42,708 bases of DNA from an uncultured Burkholderiales bacterium (GTDB taxonomy: Bacteria; Pseudomonadota; Gammaproteobacteria; Burkholderiales; Thiobacillaceae), in assembly GCA_937949525.1 (NCBI GenBank), contig CALEDT010000041.1, positions 1-42,708 on the forward strand, in the 5' to 3' direction. The notes under the pieces were generated by a model. That model saw only the letters and a program-made list of their open reading frames with translations, ran no database searches and had not been told where the DNA came from. Below are positions 1,707-35,339 of this stretch, piece by piece. The translations under genes were made by a program, and so were the position numbers. Position 1 is the stretch's first letter. Each line of letters opens with the position of its first letter.

Positions 1707-3527
<1,821 letters not shown>

Positions 3528-16453: not shown

Positions 16454-17617
16454 CTAACCGGTACCCCATTGTGCCGTGGCGATGCCGTCACCCAGGTCCG
16501 CTTCGATCAGGCGCCGGCGCACTTCCAGCAGGCGCGCGATCAGCGCCGGCTCGGCCTGCGCGTAGGCATCGGCATCCGGCACCCGTTTGACCACCACGCC
16601 CAGCAGTTCGGTGATGGCATTGCCGATGGAGTTCTGACTGATGGTGACGATGATCTGGCCGGCATCGTTGCGATAGAGCAACTGCTTGAATGCCGGTTGC
16701 CAGCGGATGGAATTGGCGTAACGCGCATCGTGGATGCAACGGTCGCGCACCATCTTCGCTGTCTTCAGCAGGGCGTTGTTGAACAGCAGCTTGTTCTCCA
16801 CCAGCTCGGGGAAATACACGTCGCGCGGCATCGGCGAGTTGCGCGTCGACACCTGCCCGAAGAAGGTTCGATAAAAATCCAGGAAGCCCTTGAGCAGGGT
16901 GTCGTACTCCTGCCAGAAACGATACTCGCGCAGCGACTCGGCGCCGCCGGTCACCTCCCAGCTCGGCAGGCCCTGCGGATAGCCGGTCAGCGCGATGCGA
17001 CAGGAACCGGCCTGGCAGGGTCTGAGAATGCGCAGATCCAGACCCTCGAAGAACTCACGGTAGACATCGCGCATGTAGGCCTGGAACAGGGAGTGCTGAC
17101 CGCCATCGGTGAGGTTGGGGTTGTTGGTATCCGCCAGCGGCGCCGCGCGCAACTGCGCCTTGTCGAACACGATGAAATGGTTGTGCAGCATGCGGATGCT
17201 GGGCACGCCCGGCGAGGTCAACGGCCAGGTGGCATCCAGGCTGGCTTCCCCGGCCAGCAACAGATGGCGGTCCGGGTCCGGATACTGCTCCAGCATGTAA
17301 GCGAACAGGATCTGGTTCATGCGGTTCCACACGTTCTTCACCGCATCCGGTACCTGTGTGCGCCGCACCGGCCGGCCCAACGGGTCCAAGATGGTCTGCG
17401 AAGTGTTGTAGATGATGGAAGTATCGAACTCGTTGCTGTGGCCCAGTGCCTTGCGATACAGCAGCAGCCCCTCCGGGTTCTGTAGCAGGCCGTTGTTGTG
17501 CACCAGATCGTTGAGGTTCTCGGTGCTGTTGAAGAATTCGTTCGGCTTCATGCCTTCCGGCACGTCGAGCGGGATGGGACGGAAGGGGGTGACGATTTCG
17601 CGGGGACCGGACTGCAT
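16454..17617 (-). CDS. Unrecognised soluble protein, 386 residues
   Basis: I do not recognise this protein. From the ATG at 17617 it is 386 residues, with no signal peptide, no membrane segment, and balanced composition typical of a cytoplasmic enzyme. Notable segments are MKPNEFFNSTENLNDLVHNN near the N-terminus, LLLAGEASLDATWPLTSPG, RMLHNHFIVFDKAQL, a Cys pair in RPCQAGSCRI, and RDVYFPELVENKLLFNNALL. Acidic and aromatic residues are plentiful, and codon use looks like the neighbours. An in-frame start at 17710 exists, but its extra 31 residues look non-coding and MQSGPREI is a better start; neither has a clear ribosome site. It occupies the slot miaA usually holds before hfq. The His-Asn-His segment recalls HIT-type nucleotidyl enzymes but the full motif is not there. 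Confidence 0.75.
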   Translation of the reverse strand: MQSGPREIVTPFRPIPLDVPEGMKPNEFFNSTENLNDLVHNNGLLQNPEGLLLYRKALGHSNEFDTSIIYNTSQTILDPLGRPVRRTQVPDAVKNVWNRMNQILFAYMLEQYPDPDRHLLLAGEASLDATWPLTSPGVPSIRMLHNHFIVFDKAQLRAAPLADTNNPNLTDGGQHSLFQAYMRDVYREFFEGLDLRILRPCQAGSCRIALTGYPQGLPSWEVTGGAESLREYRFWQEYDTLLKGFLDFYRTFFGQVSTRNSPMPRDVYFPELVENKLLFNNALLKTAKMVRDRCIHDARYANSIRWQPAFKQLLYRNDAGQIIVTISQNSIGNAITELLGVVVKRVPDADAYAQAEPALIARLLEVRRRLIEADLGDGIATAQWGTG

Positions 17618-17863
17618 GGCGGGGAGAACGTGAGGTTGCGAAGGCGGCCATCGAAGCGGTGGCGCGCGCCAGGCGCAAGTGTAAGCCAGTACACGCTGGA
17701 TGCCATGCACGGCATCCCGTTACCGGTTGAGGTTTACGCCGGATGCCGGCGACGGGGCGTCGCACGCCCCACCGTCTGCCGGCGAGGTGCACAGGCAGGC
17801 GCCGCTTCGTATTTTTGATTATTAGTACATACAAGTATTTGCATATACGTGTTTTTATCCAAT

Positions 17864-17877
17864 GTGACTAAGATCAA
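17864..17877 (+). promoter_or_regulatory. Candidate FNR/CRP-family box
   Basis: GTGAC-TAAG-ATCAA matches eight of the ten fixed positions of the FNR consensus TTGAT-N4-ATCAA. It sits in the AT-rich patch upstream of the fcc remnant. TTAGTA at 17822 and TATACG at 17844 with a 16-base spacer are a possible but weak -35/-10 pair just before it. This is a pattern match by eye. Confidence 0.3.
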
Positions 17878-17903
17878 TTTTGCAACGGATGGAGACTTCG
17901 ACA

Positions 17904-18056
17904 ATGCCGGCCGGTAACAACGCGAACAACGCCCCCACTCCCGTCGTTCCGGCTTCTTGCGCCCTCCCCGGCCTGCTTGATGCGTCGACGCGGCCGTGCG
18001 GCAAACACCATCCCTCGCACCGCTGGCGCACCCTGAGTCGCAGCCGTTTCCGCTGA
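17904..18056 (+). CDS. Possible 50-residue leader ORF
   Basis: The ORF starts at ATG with GGAG nine bases upstream and encodes 50 residues beginning MPAGNNANNAPTPVVPASCA and ending in a Ser/Arg-rich tail. I recognise no family, and the C-terminal half looks like unselected GC-rich sequence. It ends 12 bases before a strong hairpin in the fcc leader, so a leader-peptide role is conceivable. It may equally be chance. Confidence 0.25.
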   Translation: MPAGNNANNAPTPVVPASCALPGLLDASTRPCGKHHPSHRWRTLSRSRFR

Positions 18057-18068
18057 CCGGAAGGCTGG

Positions 18069-18097
18069 GCAGGCCGCATCCCGTTCTTGCGGCCTGC
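18069..18097 (+). repeat. Ten-pair perfect hairpin in the fcc leader
   Basis: GCAGGCCGCA and TGCGGCCTGC are perfect inverted copies around a nine-base loop, starting 12 bases after the possible leader ORF and ending 113 bases before the fcc ATG. There is no T run after it, so it is not a standard terminator; it may be a pause, attenuator or protein-binding structure. Confidence 0.5.
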
Positions 18098-18210
18098 TGC
18101 GGATCACGATCCGTTCTTCGGTTCCGCAGCTCCCTGCACCTTGAGTCGTCGTTTGGCGCCCGCCGGGCGGTCCGACGGGCATCTTCGTGCATCAAAACAG
18201 AGGAGTCGTC

Positions 18211-19149
18211 ATGATCAGAAGTCGCACCATCGCCATCACGCTGCTGGCCTGACTGGGTTTCAGCCTTGCCGCGCAAGCCATTGAAGACCGCCGTGTCCGC
18301 CTGCTGGCAGCCACCTGCATCACCTGCCACGGGCCGGCTGGCGTCAGCTTGGGCGCCATCCCCAGCCTGGCCGGACAGGACGCCGCCGATCTGCGCGACG
18401 CCATGATGGAACAGCGCAAGGGCGAGCGTGAAACCACCGTGATGCGCAAGTACATGATGGGTTTCACCCCCGAGGAGATCGCGCAGCTCGCCGCCCATTA
18501 TTTCAAGCAGCACAAGCCGCGCAGCAAGATCATCATGCTGGACGGGCACATCGACATCGTGTCCAAGGGGCCCATGTTCAAGGCGGCCTGGAAAGAACCC
18601 TATCCCGGCATGATCGAGCACCGGCCCAACAACCTGGTCACCACGTTCGATCACAAGACCATGGTGGTCAGCAGCGAATTCGATGATGTCAAGGCGGACG
18701 TGGTCAACATCGTGCCGTTGCAACGCGCACCCAGGATCTGTAAGGACGCCGGGTTGCGCACCGACGCGCTGGACCGTTGGTGCCCGATCGACTTCGTCAC
18801 CTATGAGTCCACTTCGGTGCCCAACATCCACGTGATCGGCGACCCGGTGCTGTCCAATATGCCCAAGTCGGTGCACGTGTCCAACAACCAGGCCAAGATC
18901 TGCGCCGCCGCGATCATCGAACTGCTCAACGGCCGCCAACCCGAACCGGTGCCGGTGATCGGCAGCACCAGCTATTCGGTGACGTCCGACAAGACGTCCG
19001 GCGCCATCGCCGTGGTGATGCGCTACAACCCGGCCACCAAGGTGTACGAACGTCAACCTATGGGCGGCACCAACCCGCTGCACAGTGAATTGGACTTCGC
19101 CTACGGCTGGGCTTGGCACGAGAACATCTGGGCCGACACGTTGGCCTGA
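18211..19149 (+). pseudogene. Broken FccA-FccB fusion (flavocytochrome c sulfide dehydrogenase remnant)
   Basis: Reading from ATG 18211, which has a good GAGGAG site eight bases upstream, gives 312 codons with one interruption: TGA at 18250-18252 (codon 14), inside the signal peptide. The next 75 or so codons are an FccA-type cytochrome c: the heme site CITCH (Cys36, Cys39, His40), PSLAGQDAADLRDAM, and a Met-rich distal ligand region. At about QLAAHYFKQHKPRSK the sequence passes without a break into the C-terminal half of FccB: KIIMLDG, the flavin-domain block FKADVVNIVPLQRA-like, WCPIDFVTYES, HVIGDPVLSNMPKS and a C-terminus ending in WAWHENIWADTLA. The N-terminal FAD-binding half of FccB with its glycine motif is missing. 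In intact loci fccA and fccB are separate adjacent genes that oxidise sulfide in the periplasm, so this is best explained by an internal deletion. After the TGA no further stop occurs for about 298 codons, so decay looks recent. Confidence 0.85.
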
Positions 19150-19189
19150 CCCAACGCCGCCCTCCTTCGGGACGGCGCACGAACTTGTA

Positions 19190-19212
19190 CGCCCGCGCCG
19201 CGGGCGTTTTTT
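19190..19212 (+). terminator. Intrinsic terminator after the fcc remnant
   Basis: CGCCCGC and GCGGGCG form a seven-pair stem with a GCC loop followed by six T, 40 bases after the fcc stop. This is a textbook rho-independent terminator for the plus strand. Confidence 0.85.
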
Positions 19213-19246
19213 CGTGGTGCGCCCTGCCGGCCGCACCACGAAAAAA
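19207..19246. terminator. Symmetric inverted repeat acting as a bidirectional terminator
   Basis: A 15-base perfect inverted repeat (TTTTTTCGTGGTGCG at 19207-19221 and its complement at 19232-19246) spans the gap between the fcc remnant and rplS. Its T runs serve as the tails of the terminator hairpins on either side. Confidence 0.7.
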
Positions 19247-19264
19247 GGCCGCCCAGCGGCGGCC
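19241..19264 (-). terminator. Intrinsic terminator of the rpsP-rplS operon
   Basis: On the minus strand GGCCGCC and GGCGGCC pair around a four-base loop, followed by six T, 24 bases after the rplS stop. Confidence 0.85.
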
Positions 19265-19288
19265 TGCGTGACACTTGCTGCCGAGGGC

Positions 19289-19672
19289 TCAACCCTTGGC
19301 CGCGCGCTTGACGTGATCCAGTTTCTCCTTGATGCGCGCCGACTTGCCGGAGCGCTGGCGCAGGTAGTACAGCTTGGCACGGCGCACGTCACCGCGACGC
19401 TTGACCTCGATCGATGCGACCAACGGCGAGTAGGTCTGGAAGGTACGCTCCACGCCTTCGCCGGCGGAAATCTTGCGCACCGTGAACGCGGAGTTGAGTC
19501 CACGGTTGCGTTTGGCGATGACCACGCCTTCGTAGGCTTGCAGACGCTCGCGGTTACCTTCCTTGACCTTCACCTGCACCACCACCGTGTCGCCGGGGGC
19601 GAACTCGGGCAGGGTCTTACCTGCGGTCAGGCGGTCCATCTCTTCTTTTTCCAGTTGCGCGATCAGGTTCAT
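19289..19672 (-). CDS. rplS: Ribosomal protein bL19
   Basis: This 127-residue large-subunit protein sits at the 30S-50S interface. Family blocks are [36 protein letters not shown] and [25 protein letters not shown] site is seven bases before the ATG. It is the last gene of rpsP-rimM-trmD-rplS, the conserved bacterial order, and is followed by a strong terminator. Confidence 0.98.
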
Positions 19673-30297: not shown

Positions 30298-31785
30298 TCA
30301 ATGCGGCGCCACTCCTTCGCCGGCGCCACCCCGCATCATCACCTCGATGGTGTCGCCGCCGGCATCGATCAACTCCACCCGCAGCGGCATCCTGCCGAGC
30401 GCGTGTGTCGCACAGGACAGACAGGGATCGAACGCGCGCACCGCGACCTCGATGTGATTGAGCAGGCCCTCGGTCAGCTTGCGGCCGTCCAGATACTGGC
30501 GCGCGACCTGGCGCACCGCTTCGTTCATGGCCTGGTTGTTGTGCGTGGTGGAGACGATCAGGTTGGCGCGGATCACCTGATCGTGCTCGTCCACCCGATA
30601 GTGATGGATCAGCGTACCGCGCGGCGCCTCGATCATGCCGATGCCGCGTTCCTGGCGCTCGCCGCTGACCACCAGGTCGGTGCCCTGCAGGTCGGCATCG
30701 TGCAACAGCTCCTTGATCGCCTCGGCCGCGTGCAGCATCTCGATCATGCGCGCCCAGTGATAGCCCAGCGTGGCGCCGGCGACGCTGCCACCGTCGTAGG
30801 CGAGAAACTCCATGCGTTCGCGATCGGCCAGCGGCGTCGGGATGAAATCGCAGTGGGTCACGCGCGCCAGCGGGCCGACGCGGTACCAGCCGTGTTGCGG
30901 ACCGAGCGCGCGCAGGAACGGGAATTTCATGTAGGACCAGGGCTTCACTTCCTCGCTGATCTGCTCCCAGTAGTGGTTGTAGTCGACATGATCGAAGATC
31001 GTGCCGCCGTCCATGTCGCGGGCACGCAGGCCGCCGTGATACAGGTCCATCGCGCCGTCGGCGCGAATCAGGCTCAGCGTATGCGCGCGGAAGCGACCGA
31101 AGGCGTTGTACTCCTCCAGGTTCTGCTCGAACAGGCGGCGCGCCAAGTGCACGGCATCGCGGCACCAGCCGATGATCGGATAGATGTCTTTCAGCAGTTC
31201 GTCGCGCTCGGCCAGTGTCAGGTTCTTGTTGACACCGCCGGGTACCGAGCCGGTGCCGTGGATGCGCTTGCCAGCGGTGTGGCGGATCACTTCCTGGCCG
31301 TACTTGCGCAGCAGCACGCCCTGACGCGCGACCTCGGGATAGGCGGCGGCGACGCCGACGATGTTGCGACGCGCCACGTCCGAGTCGAAACCGAACAGCA
31401 GGTCGGGCGATGACAGATGGAAGAAATGCAGCGCATGCGATTGCAGGATCTGGCCGTAGTGCATCAGCCGGCGCAGCTTATCGGCCGTCGGTGTGAGCCT
31501 GAACGCGCCGACGATCTGGTCGAGCGCCTTGGACGCCGCCAGATGGTGCGACACCGGGCAGATGCCGCACAGGCGCTGCACCATGACCGGCACTTCCCAG
31601 TACGGCCGGCCCTGGATGAATTTTTCGAAGCCGCGGAACTCGACGATGTGTAGCCGCACCTGCTGCACGTGGTCGTTCTCGTCCAGCAACAGGGTGACCT
31701 TGCCGTGTCCTTCGACGCGCGACAGCGGATCGATGGCGACGCGACGCAGTTTTTCCGGATGGGGGGCGGTTTCCAGTGAGGTCAT
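30298..31785 (-). CDS. hoxH: NAD-reducing [NiFe] hydrogenase large subunit HoxH
   Basis: This 495-residue cytoplasmic subunit holds the NiFe(CN)2CO site. The N-terminal nickel motif is [11 protein letters not shown] (Cys73, Cys76), and the C-terminal one is [12 protein letters not shown] (Cys455, Cys458). A further 34 residues follow His461, the part expected to be cut off during maturation. The sequence (REFRGFEKF-like start, [16 protein letters not shown], and the CATH ending) fits group 3d soluble bidirectional hydrogenases rather than membrane uptake enzymes. It lies 36 bases downstream of hoxY. Confidence 0.95.
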
Positions 31786-33129: not shown

Positions 33130-34998
33130 TCAGCGTTCCAGTTCGGCGCTCAGATGCGCGCCGGCGTCGTCGCGCCCGGTCATGCGCCGGGCGGCGGCCA
33201 GTGCGCCGTCGAGATCGAACGCCGGGACGAAGTCGAGCGACTTCAGGCGACGTTCGAAGGTCGGCCGGAAACGCTTCAACGTATCCAGCGTCGGATTGCA
33301 GGCGGTATGGCCGAGGCCGCAGTGCGCGGACTGGTGCAGCACCCGATCCAGTTGCTCGATCTCGGCGAGGTCATACTGGGTGCCCTGGCCGGCAGCGATC
33401 TTGTCCATGGTCGCCTTCAGCATGCTGGTTCCGACCCGGCAGGGCGTGCAGAAGCCGCAACTCTCGTGCGCGAAGAAATGCGCGAAATTGCGTGCCACCT
33501 CGAACAGATCGCGGCTGCGGTCGAACACCATGAAGGCACCGGCGGTGGCCAGATCCTCGAAGGCGATGCGCCGATCGAACTCGTCGCCGGCGATGCACAC
33601 GCCCGAAGGGCCGCTGATCTGTACCGCCAGCGTATCCTCGGCGCCGCAGTCGGCCAGAACCTGGCGCACCGTGACGCCGAACGGGTATTCGTAGATGCCA
33701 GGCCGGGCACAGTCGCCGGATACCGACAGCAGTTTGGTGCCGGCTGATTTCGCCGTGCCGACCGCACGGTACCAGTCGCCGCCATGGCGCGCGATCAGCG
33801 CGGCGGCGCAGAACGTCTCCACATTGTTGACCGTGGTCGGTTTCTGCAGATAGCCGTGCGTGACCGGATACGGCGGGCGGTTGCGCGGAATGCCGCGCTT
33901 GCCTTCCAGCGACTCGATCAGCGCCGATTCCTCGCCGCACACATAGGCGCCGGCGCCCAGGTGGAGGTCGATGTCGAAATCGAAACCCTTGACGCCGAGG
34001 ATGCCCGTGCCCAGCAGATTGGCGGCACGCCGGCGGGCCAGCACCGCCTGCAGTGGTCGCAGCAGATGGCGGTATTCGCCGCGCAGGTAGAGCAGGCCGT
34101 GACGCGCGCCGATGACATAGGCGCACACGGTCATGCCCTCGAACACCAGATCGGCCTGCCGGGTCAGCAGTACCCGGTCCTTGAACGTGCCTGGCTCGCC
34201 TTCGTCGGCATTGCACACCACGTAACGCGGCGTGGCCGGCGCATTGCGGCACGCCTCCCACTTCAGGCCGGTGGTGAAACCCGCGCCACCACGCCCACGC
34301 AGGTTGCTGCGCTTGATCTCCTCCAACGTGGCCAGCGGCCCCGGCGCCGCATGTACGTTGGCCTCGCGCCAGGAGCGTTCGTTGGCCGGCGCCTCGGCGT
34401 CGACGCCGGCCCCGCGGGTCAGCGCCGCGCGCAGCGCGTCGCCCGGCATCAGATCGTGGCCCAGCAGCATGTCGCTGCGCCGGATGTTGTCGTCGATGAC
34501 GAACAGGTCCGCCGGCCACTGCGCCACCGGCTGCCCGGCGACGATCAGATCGGCGATGCGGTCCAGCACGGCCCGGCTGGCGCGCGGGATGGCCCAGCCG
34601 TTGACCAGCAGGCCCGGGCCCTGATCGCACAGGCCGGTGCAGGACGTGGTATCCACGCACACCAAGCCATCCTCGGATACCCGTCCCGGCTCCACCCACA
34701 GGCGCTCGCACAGGTAGGCCATCAGTTCCTGGTTGCCCTGCATGCGATCGGTGATGTTGTCCGAGAACAGCACGCGATAACGACAGGGCGCATCGGTGTG
34801 CAGAAAGGCATAGAAGCCGGCCACGCCCTCGATGCGCGCGCGCGGCAGGCCCAGGCGTTCGGCCAGTTCGTCGATCGCCAGCGGCGGAATCCAGTGCAGC
34901 GCATCCTGCACGTCGCGCAGCATCTGCACCAGGCGCGTGGCATCGTCGCCGTGCCGCGCGACGATGGCCGCCAACTCGGCACGCACGTCATCGTTCAT
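33130..34998 (-). CDS. hoxF: Hydrogenase diaphorase subunit HoxF
   Basis: This 622-residue flavoprotein reduces NAD+. It is a natural fusion. Residues 1-160 resemble NuoE, with [2Fe-2S] ligands such as CTGLC at 120-124. The rest resembles NuoF, with the FMN/NAD glycine motif GRGGAGF (235-241), YVVCNADEGEPGTFKDR, YVCGEESALIESLEG and the [4Fe-4S] site ESCGFCTPCRVGTS. ATG 34998 is favoured by GGAG five bases upstream; an in-frame ATG at 35022 is less likely. Because HoxF carries its own NuoE part, a separate hoxE is not needed. It is the first gene of the hox operon. Confidence 0.95.
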   Translation of the reverse strand: MNDDVRAELAAIVARHGDDATRLVQMLRDVQDALHWIPPLAIDELAERLGLPRARIEGVAGFYAFLHTDAPCRYRVLFSDNITDRMQGNQELMAYLCERLWVEPGRVSEDGLVCVDTTSCTGLCDQGPGLLVNGWAIPRASRAVLDRIADLIVAGQPVAQWPADLFVIDDNIRRSDMLLGHDLMPGDALRAALTRGAGVDAEAPANERSWREANVHAAPGPLATLEEIKRSNLRGRGGAGFTTGLKWEACRNAPATPRYVVCNADEGEPGTFKDRVLLTRQADLVFEGMTVCAYVIGARHGLLYLRGEYRHLLRPLQAVLARRRAANLLGTGILGVKGFDFDIDLHLGAGAYVCGEESALIESLEGKRGIPRNRPPYPVTHGYLQKPTTVNNVETFCAAALIARHGGDWYRAVGTAKSAGTKLLSVSGDCARPGIYEYPFGVTVRQVLADCGAEDTLAVQISGPSGVCIAGDEFDRRIAFEDLATAGAFMVFDRSRDLFEVARNFAHFFAHESCGFCTPCRVGTSMLKATMDKIAAGQGTQYDLAEIEQLDRVLHQSAHCGLGHTACNPTLDTLKRFRPTFERRLKSLDFVPAFDLDGALAAARRMTGRDDAGAHLSAELER

Positions 34999-35339
34999 AT
35001 CGTCTCCATCCTCTGTCTGCATCCGCCGTGGCCCGCACCACCGCGGCGTCACCGCTTACAGTGTAGGCTCGCTTGGCGGATTTCCCCAATGCCGGCATGG
35101 CGCGGCTTGCACCCCGGACGCAGGATTCTGGCCGCTGTACTTTGCAGCCAGGTTGCGCCGTGCCCGGCCGGCGAGGTCAAGCAAGGGCCATGCCGTAACC
35201 GACCGGCCACCTGTGCGCCGCCCGCGGCCACCCGGCATCCGGCGCGCGCACCGTACCCGTGCGCGCCTGCCCGGGCGCGGTGCGCAACCGGGCGTTTGGC
35301 GGTAGGCTTGGCGTTCCGTCACCGATCGCACGACCCGCC
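34999..35339. other. 341-base divergent gap between hoxF and msrB
   Basis: No gene is supported. It must hold the hox operon promoter (minus) and the msrB promoter (plus). A GC-rich nested hairpin lies at 35246-35285 (GCGCACC/GGTGCGC outside, CGCGCC/GGCGCG inside), about 55 bases before msrB. No sigma-54-type -24/-12 element was evident by eye. Confidence 0.5.
35060..35089 (-). promoter_or_regulatory. Candidate hox operon promoter
   Basis: On the minus strand TTGGGG and TACACT are separated by 18 bases, about 60 bases before the hoxF ATG. Both hexamers are partial matches to sigma-70. Confidence 0.35.

Follow-up and report, generated by a model that had tools for sequence, protein, structure and literature searches.

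The reading frame at 18211-19149 (+) of the window, i.e., the stretch of 42,708 bases analysed here, is very probably a young pseudogene, in which a deletion fused fccA and fccB, and a nonsense stop interrupts the signal peptide. The initial annotation had described one frame with TGA at codon 14, joining a CITCH cytochrome domain to the C-terminal half of FccB without its FAD-binding N-terminus; frame reading, Pfam profiles and alignment with the FccB structure 1fcd_A all bear this description out. The frame runs from an ATG through the signal peptide with its TGA, a one-haem FccA domain (CITCH at residues 36-40) and the FccB half to a second, terminal TGA (19147-19149), with 298 open codons from the first to the second stop (Table 1). 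In the Pfam search, the part after the first TGA matched PF00034 Cytochrom_C (22.3 bits, cut-off 21.3), PF21706 FCSD_central from profile position 31 onwards (69.4 bits, cut-off 27) and PF09242 FCSD-flav_bind (29.9 bits, cut-off 26); PF13442 stayed slightly below its cut-off and none of the NCBIfam profiles exceeded theirs. Residues 72-297 of this part align with residues 164-400 of 1fcd_A (E 2.6e-36), an alignment start that leaves out the FAD-binding N-terminal half. The frame length together with the domain matches lies far outside what chance would give; both lesions, TGA and junction, are known at the level of the assembled sequence.

Table 1. Features of the fused fccA-fccB frame and its surroundings, in window positions
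Feature	Position	Strand	Evidence
Ribosome-binding site GAGGAG	18200..18205	+	sequence; adjoining leader kept in relatives L028 and L029
Start of the FccA signal peptide	18211..18249	+	signal peptides of relatives compared
TGA stop at codon 14, within the signal peptide	18250..18252	+	sense codon at the same codon number in five relatives compared
CITCH haem-binding motif of the FccA domain	18316..18330	+	motif; PF00034
fccA-derived part, cytochrome domain nearly complete	18211..18492	+	matches FccA of L028-L030 (tblastn, identity 64-68%) as far as residue 97-99
Junction of the deletion at Leu-Ala-Ala, not resolvable to the base	18487..18495	+	compared with six relatives that have fccA and fccB apart
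C-terminal half from fccB, including the fccB stop	18496..19149	+	82-85% identity to FccB of L028-L031; PF21706, PF09242
Terminator-like hairpin followed by a T run	19189..19207	+	consensus match only

The state before the damage can be read from 16 relatives (loci L028-L043, all MAG records), in which fccA and fccB are separate genes, 16-32 bp apart, in line with the initial annotation, which had noted that the two are normally separate. With start codons picked by script, FccB measures 420-426 aa in 15 of these records. Identity to the FccB half of the window is 67-85% in 15 relatives, the sixteenth (L043) having its pair cut by the contig end, and FccA identity reaches 64-68% in the closest three (L028-L030). 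Judged by identity, these pairs are orthologous to the broken one. Two of them, L028 and L029, also share the leader of the window, with exact identity over the 22 nt at 18200-18221. Their difference from the window lies in the two separate genes in place of one fused frame and in the direct neighbours. A gene neighbourhood shared with the fccAB of the relatives was rejected: the genes immediately adjoining the pair are different, which gives no grounds for describing the site as syntenic. Other parts of the window do find counterparts, at 28.6-28.9 and 35.4-36.4 kb in L032 (64-71%) and at 22.9-24.0 kb in L034 (37-52%), although the flanks compared were uneven, and a few relatives besides L032 match parts of the window away from the pair.

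Several side observations concern the surroundings of the gene. The leader at 18150-18221 holds a GC-rich stretch, a putative hairpin, which L028 and L029 have in common despite different adjacent genes. The scan yielded four terminator-like sites against 1.4 in shuffled sequences; promoter-like sites were absent from the + strand of 17650-19320. For a 418-codon frame at 16454-17710 (-), adjoining the pseudogene, the Pfam search gave nothing at E 0.001. In L033, a frame at 2860-3171 lies upstream of the intact pair and presumably resembles SoxZ.

The fused frame follows FccA up to Gln-Leu and FccB from His-Tyr-Phe, with Leu-Ala-Ala common to both. Aligning it with the fccAB of relatives, by which the initial annotation had proposed to place both breakpoints, fixes the junction at those three residues, while the exact base is not resolvable. 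Compared in that register with the six closest relatives, which stand in for the ancestral sequence here and in the similarity counts below, 658-668 bp are missing. The lost piece takes in the final fccA codons together with their stop, the spacer and almost half of fccB, including the FAD site and two functional cysteines, so the earlier claim that the FccA tail, the gap and about half of fccB had been removed holds at about 660 bp. The FAD motif and the equivalents of Cys42 and Cys161 are gone from the fused frame and present in the relatives.

The deletion ends where fccA and fccB are most alike, as had also been anticipated. When the fccA tail was slid along fccB in a 42-nt window, none of 1224 offsets matched better than the junction in five of the six relatives and one did in the sixth, the identity at the junction being 19-26 of 42. 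With a 24-nt window, the better offsets numbered 0, 2, 0, 2, 6 and 0 of 1242. The longest exact word common to both compared stretches is 6 nt in each relative, which would be too short for an assembler overlap. This pattern appears to fit slipped pairing or another short-homology event rather than a collapse by the assembler. We thus envisage that the locus once carried an fccA-fccB operon of a serine-type clade (see below), that a deletion, probably through slipped pairing between brief regions of similarity in mid fccB and the tail of fccA, fused both genes in frame, and that a nonsense mutation, arising before or after the deletion, would halt translation at codon 14.

The similarity to functional flavocytochrome c sulfide dehydrogenase FccAB (1FCD, 3VRD, 5N1T) is limited to what survived. 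The fused frame is built from the FccA cytochrome domain with a CxxCH motif and from the C-terminal half of FccB with the PF09242 domain. It differs in lacking the FAD-binding half, with the N-terminal FAD fold and the covalent-FAD cysteine Cys42, both of which the relatives have, and in carrying the TGA in its signal peptide. It also has no Cys161/Cys337 redox pair, because the region of Cys161 is deleted and the other active cysteine is a serine in its parent clade.

The selection analysis agrees with the recent loss proposed by the initial annotation. A branch codon model was fitted to 216 FccB-half codons from 16 sequences, with branch lengths fixed except for the tested tip. It gave an omega of 0.046 on the tip of the fused frame against 0.047 overall, with an approximate 95% upper limit of 0.10; omega = 1 was rejected (2dlnL 28.6). 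The FccB half thus still shows purifying selection, and the model detected no relaxation of it on this tip, as would be seen in a gene that is either too young a loss or not dead. Omega was raised on other tips (L036 0.23, L034 0.12), so the method can show shifts. For the FccA part alone (60 codons), omega was about 0.10, within a range of roughly 0.03-0.5, against 0.082 overall (2dlnL 6.7 for omega 1). Among 103 columns invariant in 15 relatives, the fused frame has changed one, and the other sequences depart at 0-5. Because the FccB half is still under purifying selection, the damage is probably young: if the remnant evolves neutrally, arithmetic from the codon model allows a neutral share of no more than about 6% of the tip (some 0.02-0.04 synonymous changes per site). 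The half keeps to what a complete FccB requires, which argues for a young deletion as well as a young stop.

Ordinary translation of the frame would yield 13 residues, as no start codon follows the TGA before 18349 and the genome has no SelB over the cut-off. No ATG, GTG or TTG occurs from the TGA to the haem motif; the first such codon, TTG 18349, comes after that motif. By ordinary translation, neither an exported cytochrome nor an FAD enzyme would be possible. Selenocysteine at the TGA was rejected, since the nine SelB matches in the genome all fall below the TIGR00475 cut-off, which two of 14 control genomes exceed. A changed code was rejected as well: the fused frame itself ends in TGA, so this codon is not generally reassigned.

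A fused protein conserved in relatives, which according to the initial annotation would have spoken against a lesion, was sought and not found. A 78-aa query spanning the junction was compared with 117 genomes of the family (own included), using the best E-value of each genome and matches listed to about E 1e-9. Some match occurred in 98 of the 117; among the matches listed, a strong one over both sides of the junction came from the own genome only. In another search, of 101 genomes (own included), no other genome matched both parts at comparable identity. One weak full-span match (38%, G031) is an FccB frame with the FAD motif and without CxxCH. In the search of 101 genomes, several matches were suspicious in that they began at query residues 39-47, and some frames of 550-790 codons could have hidden a fusion. 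We therefore read 19 loci, a portion of the places where a weaker match extended to the FccA side or the frame was long. None of the 19 has CxxCH in the FccB frame, and 18 have the N-terminal GxGxxG, the remaining one being cut by a contig end. A conserved fusion was thus rejected for the 101 and 117 genomes, among the matches listed, and for the 19 loci. The damaged frame has intact orthologues in relatives, with no fused relative among the matches listed from the 116 other family genomes or among the 19 suspicious frames.

Some of the evidence can be turned against a pseudogene. The 298 open codons, the ribosome and terminator-like sites and the purifying selection also fit a protein that is still in use, and an in-frame join has one chance in three. 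A working cytochrome-flavoprotein fragment, made by readthrough of the TGA or from a downstream start, would account for the long open frame, the nearly complete cytochrome domain and the low omega. It is nevertheless highly improbable: the fusion is absent from the other genomes examined (the 101 and 117, among the matches listed, and the 19 loci), the FAD site and Cys161 are lost, and a start at TTG 18349 would give a product with neither export signal nor haem site. The lack of SelB over the cut-off and the in-frame terminal TGA weigh in the same direction. The initial annotation had already ranked a readthrough protein as the less likely option, and its ranking is upheld. The TGA-C context may be leaky to readthrough. 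We give equally little credence to a live intermediate, in which low-level readthrough of TGA-C would supply a cytochrome-FccB-half protein in a lineage keeping three other FccAB-type pairs.

A sequencing or assembly error as the origin of the junction, the TGA or both, with an intact pair in the living cell, is unlikely, though less so than a working fusion. An error in the sequence could, in principle, account for either lesion, the genome (2.68 Mb) is an assembly of 64 contigs, and the selection on the FccB half looks undisturbed. Against this, two independent errors would be needed in one gene, the locus lies well within a contig of 119,628 bases (contig 41, of which the window is bases 1-42708), and words of at most 6 nt shared in the six relatives leave little overlap for an assembler to collapse. 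A young pseudogene therefore remains by far the most probable reading of the locus. Such a gene death is ordinary in kind; its likely cause is unusually easy to read.

The initial annotation had further proposed that a loss of sulfide oxidation would fit a shift to hydrogen or other donors. Hydrogenase genes do occur within the window: a nickel hydrogenase large-subunit frame at 30298-31785 (-), and a second one at 33130-35052 (-), whose domains are Complex1_51K and thioredoxin-like 2Fe-2S and which is probably HoxF/HoxE. Nothing links them to the fccAB lesion. A search for a second fccAB elsewhere in the genome, which the initial annotation had raised, uncovered three further full-length FccB frames (473, 476 and 495 codons), each with the Thr-Cys-Tyr motif and an FccA-like cytochrome frame beside it; soxB and dsrA are both present over their cut-offs. 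Sulfur oxidation is thus not lost on paper, and abandonment of sulfide for hydrogen is the least probable of the explanations considered. The findings suggest that one fccAB copy can be dispensable while several paralogues remain.

The clade behind the broken pair is the more interesting side result. According to PMC3504083, Cys42 serves FAD, Cys161 and Cys337 form a cysteine pair, and serine in place of either cysteine abolished the activity of an Sqr; PMC12010331 ascribes sulfide binding to the cysteine pair. The equivalent of Cys337 (1FCD numbering) is serine in all 16 records L028-L043, and likewise in the broken gene in the 1fcd_A alignment; the broken pair belongs to this serine-type FccAB clade. 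Among the papers listed, judged by titles and the openings of abstracts, none dealt with an FccAB variant with serine for Cys337. The serine-type clade may not be a sulfide dehydrogenase. In a broader set drawn largely from the same genomes, 18 of 19 loci have the serine, with the equivalents of Cys42 and Cys161 kept. The motif search on this set overlooked the FAD motif in two loci, L022 and L024, and Cys161 in the latter; the sequences themselves show that L024 contains both and that L022 contains the FAD motif. Only L027, a 57% relative, has cysteine at the Cys337 position.
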